A stretch of DNA of 39,071 nt from Chloroflexota bacterium. Lineage in GTDB: Bacteria; Chloroflexota; Anaerolineae; Promineifilales; Promineifilaceae. The stretch spans positions 1 through 39,071 of the forward strand of contig JAAYYY010000009.1 of assembly GCA_012515125.1 (NCBI GenBank). The letters run 5' to 3'. The notes under the pieces are model-generated. The model was not told the DNA's origin. It made no database searches and worked only from the letters and a program-made list of their open reading frames with translations. The stretch's first letter is position 1; each line of letters opens with the position of its first letter. Positions 30,535 through 35,971 of this stretch are shown here, piece by piece. Position numbers and translations under genes: made by a program.

Positions 30535-30563
30535 TTGCCCAACGCCCACGTTCTTGTTATTAT
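30535..30563 (+). promoter_or_regulatory. Promoter of the GbsR-like regulator gene
   Basis: TTGCCC (30535-30540), a 17-bp spacer and TATTAT (30558-30563). The predicted transcript start near 30570 lies inside the inverted repeat at 30567-30582. Confidence 0.6.
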
Positions 30564-30566
30564 ACT

Positions 30567-30582
30567 TTCAAAACATTTTGAA
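30567..30582. promoter_or_regulatory. Candidate autoregulatory operator TTCAAAA-CA-TTTTGAA
   Basis: A perfect 7-bp inverted repeat with a 2-bp centre, sitting 3 bp after the -10 and 14 bp before the start codon of a GbsR/MarR-like gene. The position would block transcription when bound. Confidence 0.55.
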
Positions 30583-30595
30583 TGTAGGGCGAGTC

Positions 30596-31147
30596 ATGCA
30601 CAAGAGTCTCGAGACTGTTAACGATAGCACGGTAGCCGGATTCGGCCGTCTGGCCGGTTTTTTCGGTTTTAGCGACGTCATGGGGCGCCTGTACGGCACC
30701 CTCCTGCTCAGTCCCGAGCCACTTTCCCTGGACGAGCTGGCCGAGCGCCTGCGCATCAGCAAAGGCTCGGTGAGCATGAATATGCGCTCCCTCGGACGGT
30801 GGGGCATGGCCCACGAAGTGTGGATGCGTGGCGAGCGCAAGAAGTATTACGAGGCAGAGCCCGATCTCTGGCAGGTAATCCGCAACGTCGTCAACGCGCG
30901 CGAGCGGCGGGAAGTGCAGGTGGCGCTGGAAGTGCTGCGCGATAGCGTCGAGAAGCTGAAATCGGCAGAAGACGAGCTGACGCCGGAAGAGAAGAAGCTG
31001 TCTGATTTTTACCTGGCGCGGATCGACGATCTGCAGGCCTTTTTCCAGGTCGCGCAGCTGGCGATGGGGACGATTCTGGGCGGCGAGGCAGGGCTCGACC
31101 TCGAGGGGATTACCCGTTTCGAACTGCCGCACAGCGGCGCTTCCTGA
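30596..31147 (+). CDS. GbsR/MarR-family transcriptional regulator
   Basis: The 183-residue protein has a winged helix-turn-helix (about 25-95): MGRLYGTLLLSPEPLSLDEL, AERLRISKGSVSMNMRSLGR and WMRGERKKYYEAEP match the GbsR group (regulators of glycine betaine uptake or synthesis in Bacillus and archaea). A C-terminal coiled-coil-like helix pair (about 100-165) should form the dimer. No osmolyte gene is nearby, so the target is unknown. The ATG at 30596 is in a GGGCGAGTC context and lies downstream of a promoter and a perfect inverted repeat. The longer 14-codon form from 30554 would span the -10 and is rejected. Confidence 0.87.
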   Translation: MHKSLETVNDSTVAGFGRLAGFFGFSDVMGRLYGTLLLSPEPLSLDELAERLRISKGSVSMNMRSLGRWGMAHEVWMRGERKKYYEAEPDLWQVIRNVVNARERREVQVALEVLRDSVEKLKSAEDELTPEEKKLSDFYLARIDDLQAFFQVAQLAMGTILGGEAGLDLEGITRFELPHSGAS

Positions 31148-31231: not shown

Positions 31232-31289
31232 GTTGCCAACAGGCCGCGTTTTGCCCTTCCAGAGGGCGGCGCAGGAGAGGGGCGACAGG

Positions 31290-32519
31290 ATGTTAGAGCT
31301 TGAAAAACTCAGCGACGAAGTTGAGAAAATGGCCCGGGGGGCCTATGAGCTGCGCCAGGAAAGCGGGGAGCTACTCGACGATCTGCTGCAAAAGCTGGAA
31401 GCACACGCCACAGCCTGGTCGAAGATCGACGCCTGCCTGCGCACGGCCGTGCGCGACCTCGATCCCAAGCTCAAGTGGTATCGCTCGGCGCGCCCGCTCG
31501 ACGCGCGCGAGCCGCTGAACGCGGCAATCGATCCTAAGCCTGTGCCGGCGCAGGCGAACCTGATCGCCAGCGACGGCTCGCAGATCTTGCCCAGCCGCCA
31601 CGGCGCCTACCTCTACTCCGTCATCAATATCGGTATTATCATCTATTACCACGGGCGGGGATGCGCCCCTTTCCAGACGACCTACCCCGTCATCGACTAC
31701 CCCAATGGCGACAAGGAGGCCGACGATTTTGTTGACGACGCCGCTATCGTCAATATCCGCCGCGATCTCGCCGAGATCGAAACGCTGGTCGCCCGGGCGC
31801 AGGAGCTGACCGAAGAGGATCTTCCCGTTCTGGCCCTGCTCGATCAGCGGCTGCTCTACTGGCCTGTGGGCTCGGGCAGCAACGACGAGGGCCGGCGGGT
31901 GCTCCTTGGCTGGCAGCAGGCGATGCAGCGGGCGCGTGACTGCGGCTGCCTGCTCGCCGGCTACATCGACCGGCCGGGCAAGCGTTCGGTAATTACCATG
32001 CTGCAAACGCTGGACATCCACAAGGTGGGCTTCGAGCCCGACAGCCTGCTGCGCCCGGCGGGCGGTTCGGCCCTGACTGACGTACAGCTTTTCCGCCATA
32101 TCCTGAAGGAGCCCGGACAGCGCAGCAAGGTTTTCGTCGATATCTCCCAGCAGAACGAGCAGTTCAGCGCTTACGACGCCGATAACGAGGTTTGCTTCTT
32201 TTACCTCAATCCCGGGGCGGCGGGGCGGCAGCTGGCCCGCGTGGATATTCCCATGTGGGTGGCGCAAGATCCGGCGCTGGTGGACCTCGTACACAGCCTC
32301 GTCCATAATCAGTGCCAGATCATGGGCGGCTATCCTTACGTCCTGACCCGCGCCGACGAGCTTGCCGTCGTCGGCGCACGCGACCGGGAGAGTCTGGAGA
32401 TGATGATCGCCACGGCGATGGAACGCTACGGCTTCTACGGCTCGGTTACGTCGAAGCAAAGCGGTAAGAACGTGGCGCGCGCCGGGCGCACGCGCCACAC
32501 AGGAGTACATGGAAGATGA
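31290..32519 (+). CDS. nurA: NurA-family nuclease
   Basis: NurA is a 5'-3' exonuclease and ssDNA endonuclease that works with the HerA translocase in DNA-end resection. The 409-residue protein has an N-terminal helical region (about 1-80) and a NurA domain (about 88-385) with the metal-binding D95 in IASDGSQI, D185 in LALLDQRLLY, and GYIDRP (224-229). The C-terminal signature reads YPYVLTRADELAV, with D356 where archaeal enzymes have His in an AH pair. The ATG at 31290 has AGGAGAGGGG upstream; the longer frame from 31233 is rejected because it abuts the promoter. The stop overlaps the HAS-barrel gene (ATGA). Confidence 0.85.
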   Translation: MLELEKLSDEVEKMARGAYELRQESGELLDDLLQKLEAHATAWSKIDACLRTAVRDLDPKLKWYRSARPLDAREPLNAAIDPKPVPAQANLIASDGSQILPSRHGAYLYSVINIGIIIYYHGRGCAPFQTTYPVIDYPNGDKEADDFVDDAAIVNIRRDLAEIETLVARAQELTEEDLPVLALLDQRLLYWPVGSGSNDEGRRVLLGWQQAMQRARDCGCLLAGYIDRPGKRSVITMLQTLDIHKVGFEPDSLLRPAGGSALTDVQLFRHILKEPGQRSKVFVDISQQNEQFSAYDADNEVCFFYLNPGAAGRQLARVDIPMWVAQDPALVDLVHSLVHNQCQIMGGYPYVLTRADELAVVGARDRESLEMMIATAMERYGFYGSVTSKQSGKNVARAGRTRHTGVHGR

Positions 32520-33205
32520 CGTCACCCATCCCTCTTCCCGCCACCCCGGCCGGCAACGGCCAGTCCGCCTCACCAAACGGCGATGAGTTCGGGCGCGTCC
32601 TGCGCGCCAGCACGACCGGTTTCGCCGTCGGCAGCCGCGTAGCCCAGCTCGAAGCGCCGAGCTTTGGCTGTATGGTCAAGGCGCAGCCTGTGGACGAGCG
32701 CGAGGCCATCTATGGCCTGATCTACGACATGAACATCGACGACGATCCGTTGATCCGCCGGCTCATTCTTGCCGAGAACCCGCGCCAGTCGGTCATCGAA
32801 GACCAGCGGCGCAACCGGCTCGTGCCCATCGAGATGAGCGTGCTGACCATCGGCTACCGGCGCAACGGGCAGTTCCACCACGGGCTGCCCCCGCGCCCGC
32901 CGCTGAACCTCGACCCGGTCCAGCTCTGCACGGACCAGGAAGAGACGATCCGCTTCACCGACCGCCCGGATTACCTGCGGCTGATCCTGCGCACGGTGGG
33001 CGGGCAGGTGCCCGTCGACCAGCTTCTCGTCGCCCACATCCTGCAGACCTATGAGAAACGGGGCAACGACGCAGCCTGGGCGCGGCGCACCATCGCCGCC
33101 CTTGTCGAGCTGTTGCGCAACGATTACGATCTGCTGACGGTCGTGCTGGAGCTGCTCAGCCAGGCGCTGCCCGGGCTGCCGGAAGTGGCGGAGCTGGCGC
33201 TATAA
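32516..33205 (+). CDS. Stand-alone HAS-barrel protein between nurA and herA
   Basis: The 229-residue protein has a Pro-rich N-terminus (about 1-22), then a segment that looks like the HAS barrel (HerA-ATP synthase barrel, about 23-120): FGRVLRASTTGFAVGSRV, FGCMVKAQP and AIYGLIYDMNIDDDP follow the same order as the barrel of HerA (FGxV, FGxxVxV, GlVyD). A helical C-terminal half (about 130-229) follows, with LLVAHILQTYEKRGNDAAWA. There is no ATPase motif. Overlap with nurA and a 16-bp gap to herA imply a shared complex; an adaptor or clamp role is inferred. The ATG at 32516 has GGAAG upstream. Confidence 0.7.
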   Translation: MTSPIPLPATPAGNGQSASPNGDEFGRVLRASTTGFAVGSRVAQLEAPSFGCMVKAQPVDEREAIYGLIYDMNIDDDPLIRRLILAENPRQSVIEDQRRNRLVPIEMSVLTIGYRRNGQFHHGLPPRPPLNLDPVQLCTDQEETIRFTDRPDYLRLILRTVGGQVPVDQLLVAHILQTYEKRGNDAAWARRTIAALVELLRNDYDLLTVVLELLSQALPGLPEVAELAL

Positions 33206-33221
33206 GTAACGGGGACACATC

Positions 33222-34934
33222 ATGGCAAACAACAACATTGGCTACGTCATCGGCGGCGGCCTGCGCGAAGGCTTTCGTGTTCGCCTGACCACCCAGGCCG
33301 AGCAGGTCCAGGAAGGCAGCTTCGTCGTCTGTGATAGCGGGCGCTGGCGCTTCTTTGGCCTGGTGACCGACCTGCAGCTGGGCGCGACCGATTCACGCTA
33401 TGCCGAAGATCAGATGGAGCGGCTGCAGCCTTCGTTCCGCAGCCTGCTGCGCGGCCAGACGCTCTACACCACGCTGGATATGTACCCGACGCTGATGCTG
33501 GACAGAGGCCCGGACCCGGATCTGGATCCAGAAGGGCGGCTGGCCTGGCTGGAGGAGAGGGACGGGCAGGCGGGGCCGCAGCCGGTGAAGACGGTGCCGG
33601 ACCATCACGCCGCCGTCCGTCTGGCGGATGAGGCCGATGTGGAAGAGATCTTTCCCGGCGACTTTATCATCGGCCATACCATCGAGCAGGGGCACCCGGT
33701 GCGGCTCGACCTGGGCCGCTTCGTCAAGCGCTCCAGCGGCATTTTCGGCGCGACGGGCACCGGAAAGAGCTTCCTGACGCGCATGGCCCTCGCCGGCATG
33801 ATGAAAGAAGACGTAGCCGGCGCGCTGGTCTTCGACATGCACAACGAGTATGGCTTCGACGACCACGACAGCGACAACAACCTGAAGGTCGCCGGCCTGC
33901 GCTCCCTCTTTGGCCCGAAGGTGCAGGTAGCCGCCCTGGGCAAAGGGGCCACGGTACGCGGCCATACGCCCGACTTCACTCTGGAGCTGGGCATGGGTGA
34001 TTTTACGACGGCCGACATTCTGCTCCTCGGCGAGGCGCTCAACCTGACGGACACCGCCGAAGTTACCCTTAACGCGCTGGCCCGTGCGTTCGGCCAGAAC
34101 TGGTTCTCCAGCTTTATGCGGCTGGAGCCGGGAGCCGTCGAGGTCGATCCTGAGACCGGAAAGTCGGTGCCCGCGGACAACTCCGTCGCCGCCTGGGCGC
34201 GGCAAAACAACGTGCAGGAAAAGGCCGCCGAAGCGCTGCACCGGCGTTTGGCGACGATAGCCAGCCGCCCCTACGTGGTCGAACAGCCGGTGAGCGACGC
34301 CGTCACAGAGATCGTCGATAAACTGGAGCACGGCCGGCACATCATCCTGAGCTTCGGCGAATATGAACGCGACCTCGACTATCTGCTCGTCAGCAACATC
34401 CTTACCCGGCGCATCCGCCAGCACTGGGTGCGCAAGACTGAGGAGCACAAGACGCATGGGGCACCGTCGCCGCGCCCGCTGGTCATCGCCGTCGAAGAGG
34501 CGCACAAGCTGCTGAACCCACACATCGCCCGGCAGACCGCCTTCGGCACCATCGCCCGCGAGCTGCGCAAATATTTCGTCACCCTGCTCATCGTCGATCA
34601 GCGTCCCTCGGGCATCGATGACGAGGTGATGAGCCAGCTCGGCACGCGCATCACCGGCTGGCTGGGCGACGAGGACGACATTCGCGCCGTGCTGACCGGT
34701 CTGGCCGGCCGGGAGCAGCTTCGCGGCATGCTCGCCCGCCTGCAGGAAAAAGAGGAAGTGCTGCTGCTCGGCTGGGGCGTCAAGATGCCGATCCCGGTAC
34801 GCTCGCGCCGCTACGATCAGGACTTCTACGACGAGATGCGGGGCCGCAAGAAGCGCGAGTCGGCCGGAGGAAGCAACGCTTTCCCCGTCATCGACGATTT
34901 TGACGACATCAACAGCGATCTGTTCGGCGCATGA
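33222..34934 (+). CDS. herA: HerA-like DNA translocase/helicase ATPase
   Basis: The 570-residue HerA/FtsK-superfamily ATPase is expected to form a hexameric ring that pumps DNA for NurA. It has an N-terminal HAS barrel (about 5-60, IGYVIGGGLREGFRVRL, FFGLVTDLQLGATD), Walker A GATGTGKS (176-183), the DMHNEYG segment (205-211) equivalent to the HerA DPxxEY motif, and Walker B VIAVEEAHKLL (421-431) with adjacent Glu residues. RELRKYFVTLLIVDQRPS is the sensor/arginine-finger region, and a C-terminal brace (about 545-570) is acidic. The ATG at 33222 has GGGGA upstream. The stop overlaps the alcohol dehydrogenase start by 4 bp. Confidence 0.9.
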   Translation: MANNNIGYVIGGGLREGFRVRLTTQAEQVQEGSFVVCDSGRWRFFGLVTDLQLGATDSRYAEDQMERLQPSFRSLLRGQTLYTTLDMYPTLMLDRGPDPDLDPEGRLAWLEERDGQAGPQPVKTVPDHHAAVRLADEADVEEIFPGDFIIGHTIEQGHPVRLDLGRFVKRSSGIFGATGTGKSFLTRMALAGMMKEDVAGALVFDMHNEYGFDDHDSDNNLKVAGLRSLFGPKVQVAALGKGATVRGHTPDFTLELGMGDFTTADILLLGEALNLTDTAEVTLNALARAFGQNWFSSFMRLEPGAVEVDPETGKSVPADNSVAAWARQNNVQEKAAEALHRRLATIASRPYVVEQPVSDAVTEIVDKLEHGRHIILSFGEYERDLDYLLVSNILTRRIRQHWVRKTEEHKTHGAPSPRPLVIAVEEAHKLLNPHIARQTAFGTIARELRKYFVTLLIVDQRPSGIDDEVMSQLGTRITGWLGDEDDIRAVLTGLAGREQLRGMLARLQEKEEVLLLGWGVKMPIPVRSRRYDQDFYDEMRGRKKRESAGGSNAFPVIDDFDDINSDLFGA

Positions 34935-35971
34935 GAGCGGCGATCTTTGATGCCTTTGCCGGGCCAATCGCCATCCGGGAACTGCCCGATCCCGAGCCGC
35001 CGCCCGACGGCGTCGTCATTCAGGTCGGCGCGACCGGCCTTTGCCGCAGCGACTGGCACGGCTGGATGGGGCACGACGCCGACGTGCACCCGCCGCACGT
35101 ACCGGGGCACGAGTTCGCGGGGCGTATCGTCGCCGTCGGGCCGGAGGTGCGCGGCTGGCAGATCGGCGAGCGGGTGACGGTACCCTTTGCCCTGGGTTGC
35201 GGCGCCTGCCCCCAATGCACCGCCGGCAACCAGCAGATCTGCGACAACTATTACCAGCCCGGCTTCACCGGCTGGGGCAGCTTTGCCGAGTACGTCGCCA
35301 TTCCCTACGCAGCGGCCAACCTCGTGCGGCTGCCTGACGAAGTCAGCGACGTGGAAGCAGCGACCCTCGGCTGCCGCTTTATCACCTCTTTCCGGGCTAT
35401 CGTCGATCAGGGCCGCCTGCGTGCGGGAGAATGGGCCGTGGTCTACGGCTGCGGCGGCGTGGGCCTCTCGGCGATTATGATCGCCCATAGCCAGGGGGCA
35501 CGGGTCGTCGCCGTAGACGTAGACGACGCGGCGCTGGCCCTCGCCCAACAGATGGGCGCAGACGCCGTGCTCAACGCGCGCATGATGGAAGACGCGCCGG
35601 CAGCGGTGGTCGAGATAACCGGCGGCGGCGCCCACCTCAGCCTCGACGCGCTGGGCAGCGCCGAGACCTGCCGCAACGCCATTCTCAGCCTGCGCAAGCG
35701 GGGGCGCCACGTACAGGTCGGGCTTCTGGGAGCGGAAGGGGGTCAGACGATGGCGCCGATAGGCCGGATCATCGCCCACGAGCTGGAGATACTCGGCAGC
35801 CACGGCATGCAAGCTCACCAGTACCCGCGCCTGCTGGGGATGATGGCGGCGGGCCGCCTGCAGCCCGGCCGGCTCGTGCAGCGCACGATCAGCCTGGAAG
35901 AGGCCCCGGAGGCGCTAGAAGCAATGGGGCGCTTCGCGCAGCCGGGCGTGACGGTGATCGATCGCTTCTAG
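34931..35971 (+). CDS. Zinc-dependent medium-chain alcohol dehydrogenase
   Basis: The 346-residue MDR-family enzyme has catalytic zinc ligands C38 (GLCRSDWHG), H60-E61 (GHEFAG) and C148, a structural zinc site C90/C93/C96/C104 (GCGACPQC ... ICDN) and the cofactor loop GCGGVG. The residue at the end of the second strand of the Rossmann fold is Asp (VVAVDVDD), favouring NAD. The substrate is not predictable. The ATG overlaps the herA stop (ATGA) with no own ribosome-binding site, so it depends on herA translation; the biochemical reason is unclear. Convergent with the panE-family gene, 30 bp away. Confidence 0.9.
   Translation: MRAAIFDAFAGPIAIRELPDPEPPPDGVVIQVGATGLCRSDWHGWMGHDADVHPPHVPGHEFAGRIVAVGPEVRGWQIGERVTVPFALGCGACPQCTAGNQQICDNYYQPGFTGWGSFAEYVAIPYAAANLVRLPDEVSDVEAATLGCRFITSFRAIVDQGRLRAGEWAVVYGCGGVGLSAIMIAHSQGARVVAVDVDDAALALAQQMGADAVLNARMMEDAPAAVVEITGGGAHLSLDALGSAETCRNAILSLRKRGRHVQVGLLGAEGGQTMAPIGRIIAHELEILGSHGMQAHQYPRLLGMMAAGRLQPGRLVQRTISLEEAPEALEAMGRFAQPGVTVIDRF

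Follow-up and report, generated by a model that had tools for sequence, protein, structure and literature searches.

Why should an operon that encodes the nuclease NurA and the translocase HerA, the latter with a HAS barrel of its own, carry a second and separate barrel between the two genes? In the window, by which we mean the whole stretch of 39,071 nucleotides that was analysed, derived from a Chloroflexota genome, three genes lie on the plus strand in the order NurA (31290..32519; Pfam NurA, 8.6e-19), a 229-residue protein that we call X (32516..33205) and the ATPase/translocase HerA (33222..34934, 570 residues; Pfam DUF87, 3e-22). Work on HerA–NurA has so far dealt with a complex of two proteins, in which the HAS barrels of six HerA subunits form a ring with a NurA dimer on top, at a ratio of six HerA to two NurA, and in which the barrels carry the docking surface for NurA (PMC9960219; PMC12977600). 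In D. radiodurans the contact is made by acidic residues of the HerA barrel (PMC9960219) and in T. kodakarensis by its alpha-1 helix and the preceding loop (PMC12977600). There is disagreement over whether HerA–NurA makes the 3' overhangs that recombination requires: both strands were cut by the T. kodakarensis complex, in a study that could not account for a role in resection (PMC12977600). We suggest that a third protein probably belongs to the complex as a regular part, and propose, with a probability of roughly 0.55, that X serves the HerA–NurA DNA-end-processing machine as a permanent third subunit that lacks catalytic activity. Conserved in most bacterial systems surveyed and in some archaeal ones, X could be a missing component of HerA–NurA.

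X is a real gene and belongs to a conserved family. Its open reading frame is intact from ATG to TAA, the ATG shares four bases with the TGA of NurA (ATGA, 32516..32519, plus strand), and 16 bp separate its stop codon from the start of HerA. The overlap, judged from the sequence, suggests that translation of NurA and X is coupled. A frameshift-truncated HerA or a pseudogene was ruled out, as the frame is unbroken and conserved, with no trace of an ATPase downstream; a phage origin was considered as well, and tblastn against phages gave no match. The open reading frame list begins NurA at a TTG at 31233, which is probably wrong; the ATG at 31290, downstream of GGAGAGG, a purine-rich stretch resembling a ribosome-binding site, is the likelier start. 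Directly upstream of the operon and on the same strand lies a winged-helix regulator (30554..31147) with weak TrmB and MarR matches, which might control NurA-X-HerA. At the other end a zinc alcohol-dehydrogenase-like gene (34931..35971) follows with a four-base overlap at the HerA stop codon and is therefore probably part of the same transcript; it has no obvious functional link to the three genes.

The original prediction described X as a stand-alone HAS barrel, within residues 20-120, followed by a helical domain, and structure prediction bore this out. The AlphaFold2 model, built with a 76-row alignment of relatives (pLDDT 90.5, pTM 0.83), places six strands in residues 24-121 (24-31, 35-40, 53-56, 63-74, 105-116 and 119-121; 32585..32878, plus strand), with two short helices within the barrel region and the helices of a C-terminal domain at 141-217 (32936..33166, plus strand). 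When the model was compared to the PDB with Foldseek, the best 50 among the matches listed were all HerA or the HerA-like TdpAB complex, with E values of 9.6e-6 to 5.4e-4; the TM-scores, normalised to the whole query, were 0.33-0.44, as expected if the barrel alone matches. The search with a HAS-barrel profile, which had been suggested as a check, succeeded for the family but not for the copy at hand: 40 of the 76 aligned relatives match Pfam HAS-barrel PF09378, the best of them (L051) with an E value of 3.9e-10 and 40.1 bits (cut-off 25.2) over profile positions 1-90 of 90, whereas the X of the window has no Pfam match. Searched as a single sequence, the latter gave no match in Pfam, NCBIfam or PADLOC apart from one chance NCBIfam match (E 0.088), and nothing useful in the PDB; the family profile against PDB sequences yielded chance matches only.

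Profile-profile comparison agrees with the fold. Residues 22-150 of X align to residues 1-150 of HerA collinearly and in register, the barrel itself to HerA 1-130, with a score of 27, compared to 15 or less for shuffled columns, a reversed domain and other slices of HerA. The alignment runs on into the linker that follows the barrel, where LPPRPP..H..V in X (linker residues 122-140; 32879..32935, plus strand) is matched by PQPVKTVP.H..V in HerA. The hhalign probability of 10-49% supports the fold evidence and is no proof alone. The model gives X an N-terminal part that is predicted to be a small beta-barrel like the N-terminus of HerA, with the same barrel fold and strand order as PF09378 and the structures of Sulfolobus HerA (4d2i), T. 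kodakarensis HerA-NurA (9x1l) and D. radiodurans HerA (7WRW), and an in-register alignment that extends through the post-barrel linker.

X differs from HerA in being a separate protein of 200-230 residues that has no match to DUF87 or another RecA-like ATPase; the ~100 residues that follow the barrel are all helical instead. Modelled separately, the helical domain reached a pLDDT of 92.3 and is conserved in the X family. Against PDB folds it gave no significant match (best E 0.84; weak TPR/MA3-like matches only), leaving it without a relative of known structure, and comparison of its profile with slices of HerA found no counterpart there.

It had been suggested that such a protein could replace the barrel of HerA. 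This is disfavoured, and a substitute for that barrel was ruled out, as the HerA proteins of X-bearing genomes keep a conserved N-terminal barrel; X is therefore an extra barrel. Of the other roles that had been suggested, X may cap the ring or recruit another partner. The original prediction had the neighbouring HerA already equipped with one, which is what we find in the window, where the Pfam HAS-barrel match is weak (residues 6-58, 25.2 bits). An alignment of 32 HerA proteins shows good conservation of this N-terminal barrel (LG.V..GSL..GL.VRLD...VG.YVVI.G...RFFGMITDV). The HerA proteins of the window clade additionally carry an acidic insertion right after the barrel (LDRGPDPDLDPEGRLAWLEERDG; residues 97-123, 33510-33590 of the window), which is missing from most other HerA proteins in the alignment.

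How constantly does X accompany its neighbours? Relatives were found in 50 of 59 related genomes by a single-sequence search. In a sample of 300 Chloroflexota genomes of at least 90% completeness, the single sequence detected X in 116 and the profile in 124, three weak matches being left out. Setting the HerA threshold at E <=1e-60, with the aim of excluding FtsK-like and defence paralogues, we found HerA in 124 of these genomes, the main type of NurA in 123 and all three proteins in 121; no genome had main-type NurA without X. At least some of the exceptions to the full set look like assembly gaps, and in one genome (G325) the contig stops just past X. A divergent NurA is present in a further 51 Chloroflexota genomes, 49 of which encode a divergent X, here X2, the main form being X1. 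Among Chloroflexota genomes lacking a NurA match, the 20 tested for X2 included a single positive (G065).

The pattern recurs in three phyla and in two divergent clades. In the phylum of a record assigned to Abditibacteriales, NurA is present in 26 of 151 genomes, 24 of which have X and one more X2 (L216), i.e. 25 of 26, and the X1 profile found X in none of the 20 NurA-negative genomes tested. In the phylum of a record titled Gemmatimonadota, 35 of 50 genomes have NurA, 35 have X and 34 both. Summed over the three bacterial phyla, X or X2 is present in 231 of 235 NurA-bearing genomes, many of them metagenome assemblies, a number that is not a probability as the genomes are related and no independent samples; few NurA-negative genomes have X. 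The profile survey covered samples of these three phyla. X is encoded and co-inherited with nurA and herA.

The genes are also found side by side. Counting Chloroflexota loci in which X is flanked by 1.4 kb or more at either end (n = 76), X directly follows NurA and directly precedes HerA in 37; in others NurA is present without a nearby HerA (15), HerA without a nearby NurA (8), or neither is near (6). Wherever NurA, X and HerA are linked, they share one strand throughout. An independent set of genome contigs shows NurA–X–HerA in 49 of 80 loci, many of the others being cut by contig ends, and includes records titled Latescibacterota, Abditibacteriales, Tectomicrobia, Gemmatimonadota and Deltaproteobacteria. 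Within Chloroflexota X is single-copy and mostly syntenic. No fusion of X to NurA or HerA was found; a 670-residue NurA frame (L213), taken for a candidate, turned out to be merely a long open frame. Linkage does not account for the co-occurrence: in one genome (G182) X and NurA are adjacent with HerA 1.2 Mb away, and in another (G210), a single contig, X, NurA and HerA lie at 0.74, 1.82 and 2.09 Mb.

As the barrel of X is of the type that docks NurA, the simplest reading is that X would bind at the interface of NurA and the HAS ring as a third subunit. Its N-terminus appears to consist of a HAS barrel and linker of the kind that in HerA form the NurA-bearing ring; most likely X would dock through this barrel where NurA meets the ring of the HerA hexamer, would there stabilise or gate the complex, and through its helical domain may contact the ends of DNA or some other repair protein. 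The fold, the operon order, the near-constant co-occurrence and the intact barrel of HerA are observations; that X binds its partners, where it sits, in how many copies and what it does to the nuclease are inferences. Against X as third subunit we count the kinship of the sampled genomes, the separation of X2 from NurA in the X2-bearing genomes of family f43, and the lack of fusions. Since the complexes of D. radiodurans and T. kodakarensis are active without a third protein (PMC9960219; PMC12977600), X is not universally needed.

X could instead assist assembly or loading: a lone barrel would bind HerA protomers or an open ring briefly, aid closure on DNA or the loading of NurA, and leave. 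A barrel that lacks a motor can associate with those of HerA while leaving the ring incomplete, and heptameric states of the Sulfolobus HerA ring have been proposed as DNA-loading intermediates, according to passages in PMC9960219 / PMC12977600 that cite this proposal; the co-occurrence with NurA and HerA is as expected here as for a third subunit. However, the translational overlap of NurA and X in the window, and the loci in which X stays beside NurA where HerA has moved, fit a NurA-side partner better, and D. radiodurans HerA alone gives stable hexamers (PMC9960219). We regard a transient loading factor as possible and on the whole unlikely.

A NurA-side partner might also act as a regulator that mimics the docking barrel of HerA, competing for NurA so that the nuclease stays inactive as long as HerA has not been loaded. 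The profile alignment puts a helix of X (residues 91-100) over residues ~70-80 of HerA, near the helix that docks NurA in the structures, and X is constantly paired with NurA, both of which would suit a competitor. Yet no acidic-loop motif of the D. radiodurans HerA type was apparent in X, the charge of the barrel is milder in X than in HerA, and a competitor need not adjoin HerA, whereas some lineages keep X by HerA and apart from NurA. Such competition seems to us rather improbable.

The X2 form raises the question of further partners. The X1 profile finds X2 members with E values down to 6e-9, and a profile of X2 and archaeal sequences aligns to X1 with an hhalign probability of 97% (E 2.9e-11) over 164 columns that include the helical domain; on these sequence comparisons X1 and X2 are one family. 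Two Chloroflexota loci (L176:1008-8899; L178:3119-10564) have the archaeal-style operon metallophosphatase (Mre11/SbcD) – SMC ATPase (Rad50/SbcC) – NurA – X2 – HerA, and a third (L171) reads Rad50 – NurA – X2 with HerA one gene further. These operons lie outside Deinococcus-Thermus, the sole bacterial herA-nurA group in the literature found (PMC12977600). By a translated search of plasmids, X2 relatives were detected on haloarchaeal megaplasmids; in Natrinema zhouii, halophilic archaeon DL31 and Halobaculum, a metallophosphoesterase, an SMC ATPase, NurA, X2 and a DUF87/HerA ATPase are encoded, X2 being annotated "hypothetical protein". Compared to the archaeal mre11-rad50-nurA-herA operon, the X2 operon of haloarchaea and Chloroflexota has the same four functions and X2 as a fifth gene between nurA and herA. 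In at least three bacterial phyla NurA and HerA are almost invariably accompanied by X, and so is the Mre11-Rad50-NurA-HerA operon of archaeal type.

These operons, together with a helical domain that is conserved and has no assigned role, would suit an adaptor between HerA-NurA and a second machine for end processing, for instance Mre11-Rad50 (SbcCD). Mre11/Rad50 genes stand beside nurA and herA with the X2 form only (L176, L178 and L220-L222; L171 with Rad50 read), though, and no SbcCD or Mre11-Rad50 genes lie beside X in the window. The Mre11-Rad50-HerA-NurA operons of thermophilic archaea, in published descriptions, have four genes. We regard an adaptor as distinctly improbable. That X is an unrelated housekeeping gene caught in the operon by chance is scarcely credible: bacterial operons sometimes carry unrelated genes, as the alcohol-dehydrogenase-like gene overlapping the HerA stop may illustrate here, but X tracks NurA and HerA even in genomes where they lie far apart and is missing from those that lack them, and this reading is largely refuted because the co-occurrence persists without linkage.

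X is likewise set apart from the HerA-based anti-phage systems (SIR2-HerA, DUF4297-HerA, TdpAB), HerA-like hexamers with the barrels that X resembles most closely in structure: X is no effector enzyme and has no known effector pairing, and it is a single-copy, mostly syntenic core gene and not part of a sporadic island. PADLOC has no models for X or NurA.

Returning to X as a third subunit, the bacterial herA–nurA operon has been described for Deinococcus-Thermus only (a 2026 paper, PMC12977600), and in the open-licence literature we found no paper describing a third protein of HerA–NurA. The known two-component complexes of Deinococcus-Thermus and archaea (PMC9960219; PMC12977600) involve the same partners from adjacent genes and consist of HerA and NurA only (6:2), whereas here a third gene accompanies them almost always. 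The barrel domain and the partners were already known; what appears to be new is a motorless subunit encoded on its own, and how constantly it is present. More tentatively, HerA-NurA may be a three-protein machine outside Deinococcus-Thermus and thermophilic archaea, in which a motorless HAS-barrel subunit would be wedged between the ring of HerA and its NurA dimer, deciding when or how the nuclease cuts, while a second form would couple the machine to Mre11-Rad50; we would sooner doubt this picture than rely on it.

HerA and NurA have been reported to be absent from Haloferax volcanii (review, PMC7776575), and for this reason the haloarchaeal plasmid copies look like a mobile version. On three haloarchaeal megaplasmids (L220-L222) the operon is preceded by a DEAD/DEAH helicase gene or a gene of the phospholipase-D family, and it may represent a mobile island for repair or defence. 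At a further locus (L223:2710-2871), the plasmid table lists a predicted DES beta-lactamase of 162 bases over the end of a HerA-like gene, a call that is likely spurious.
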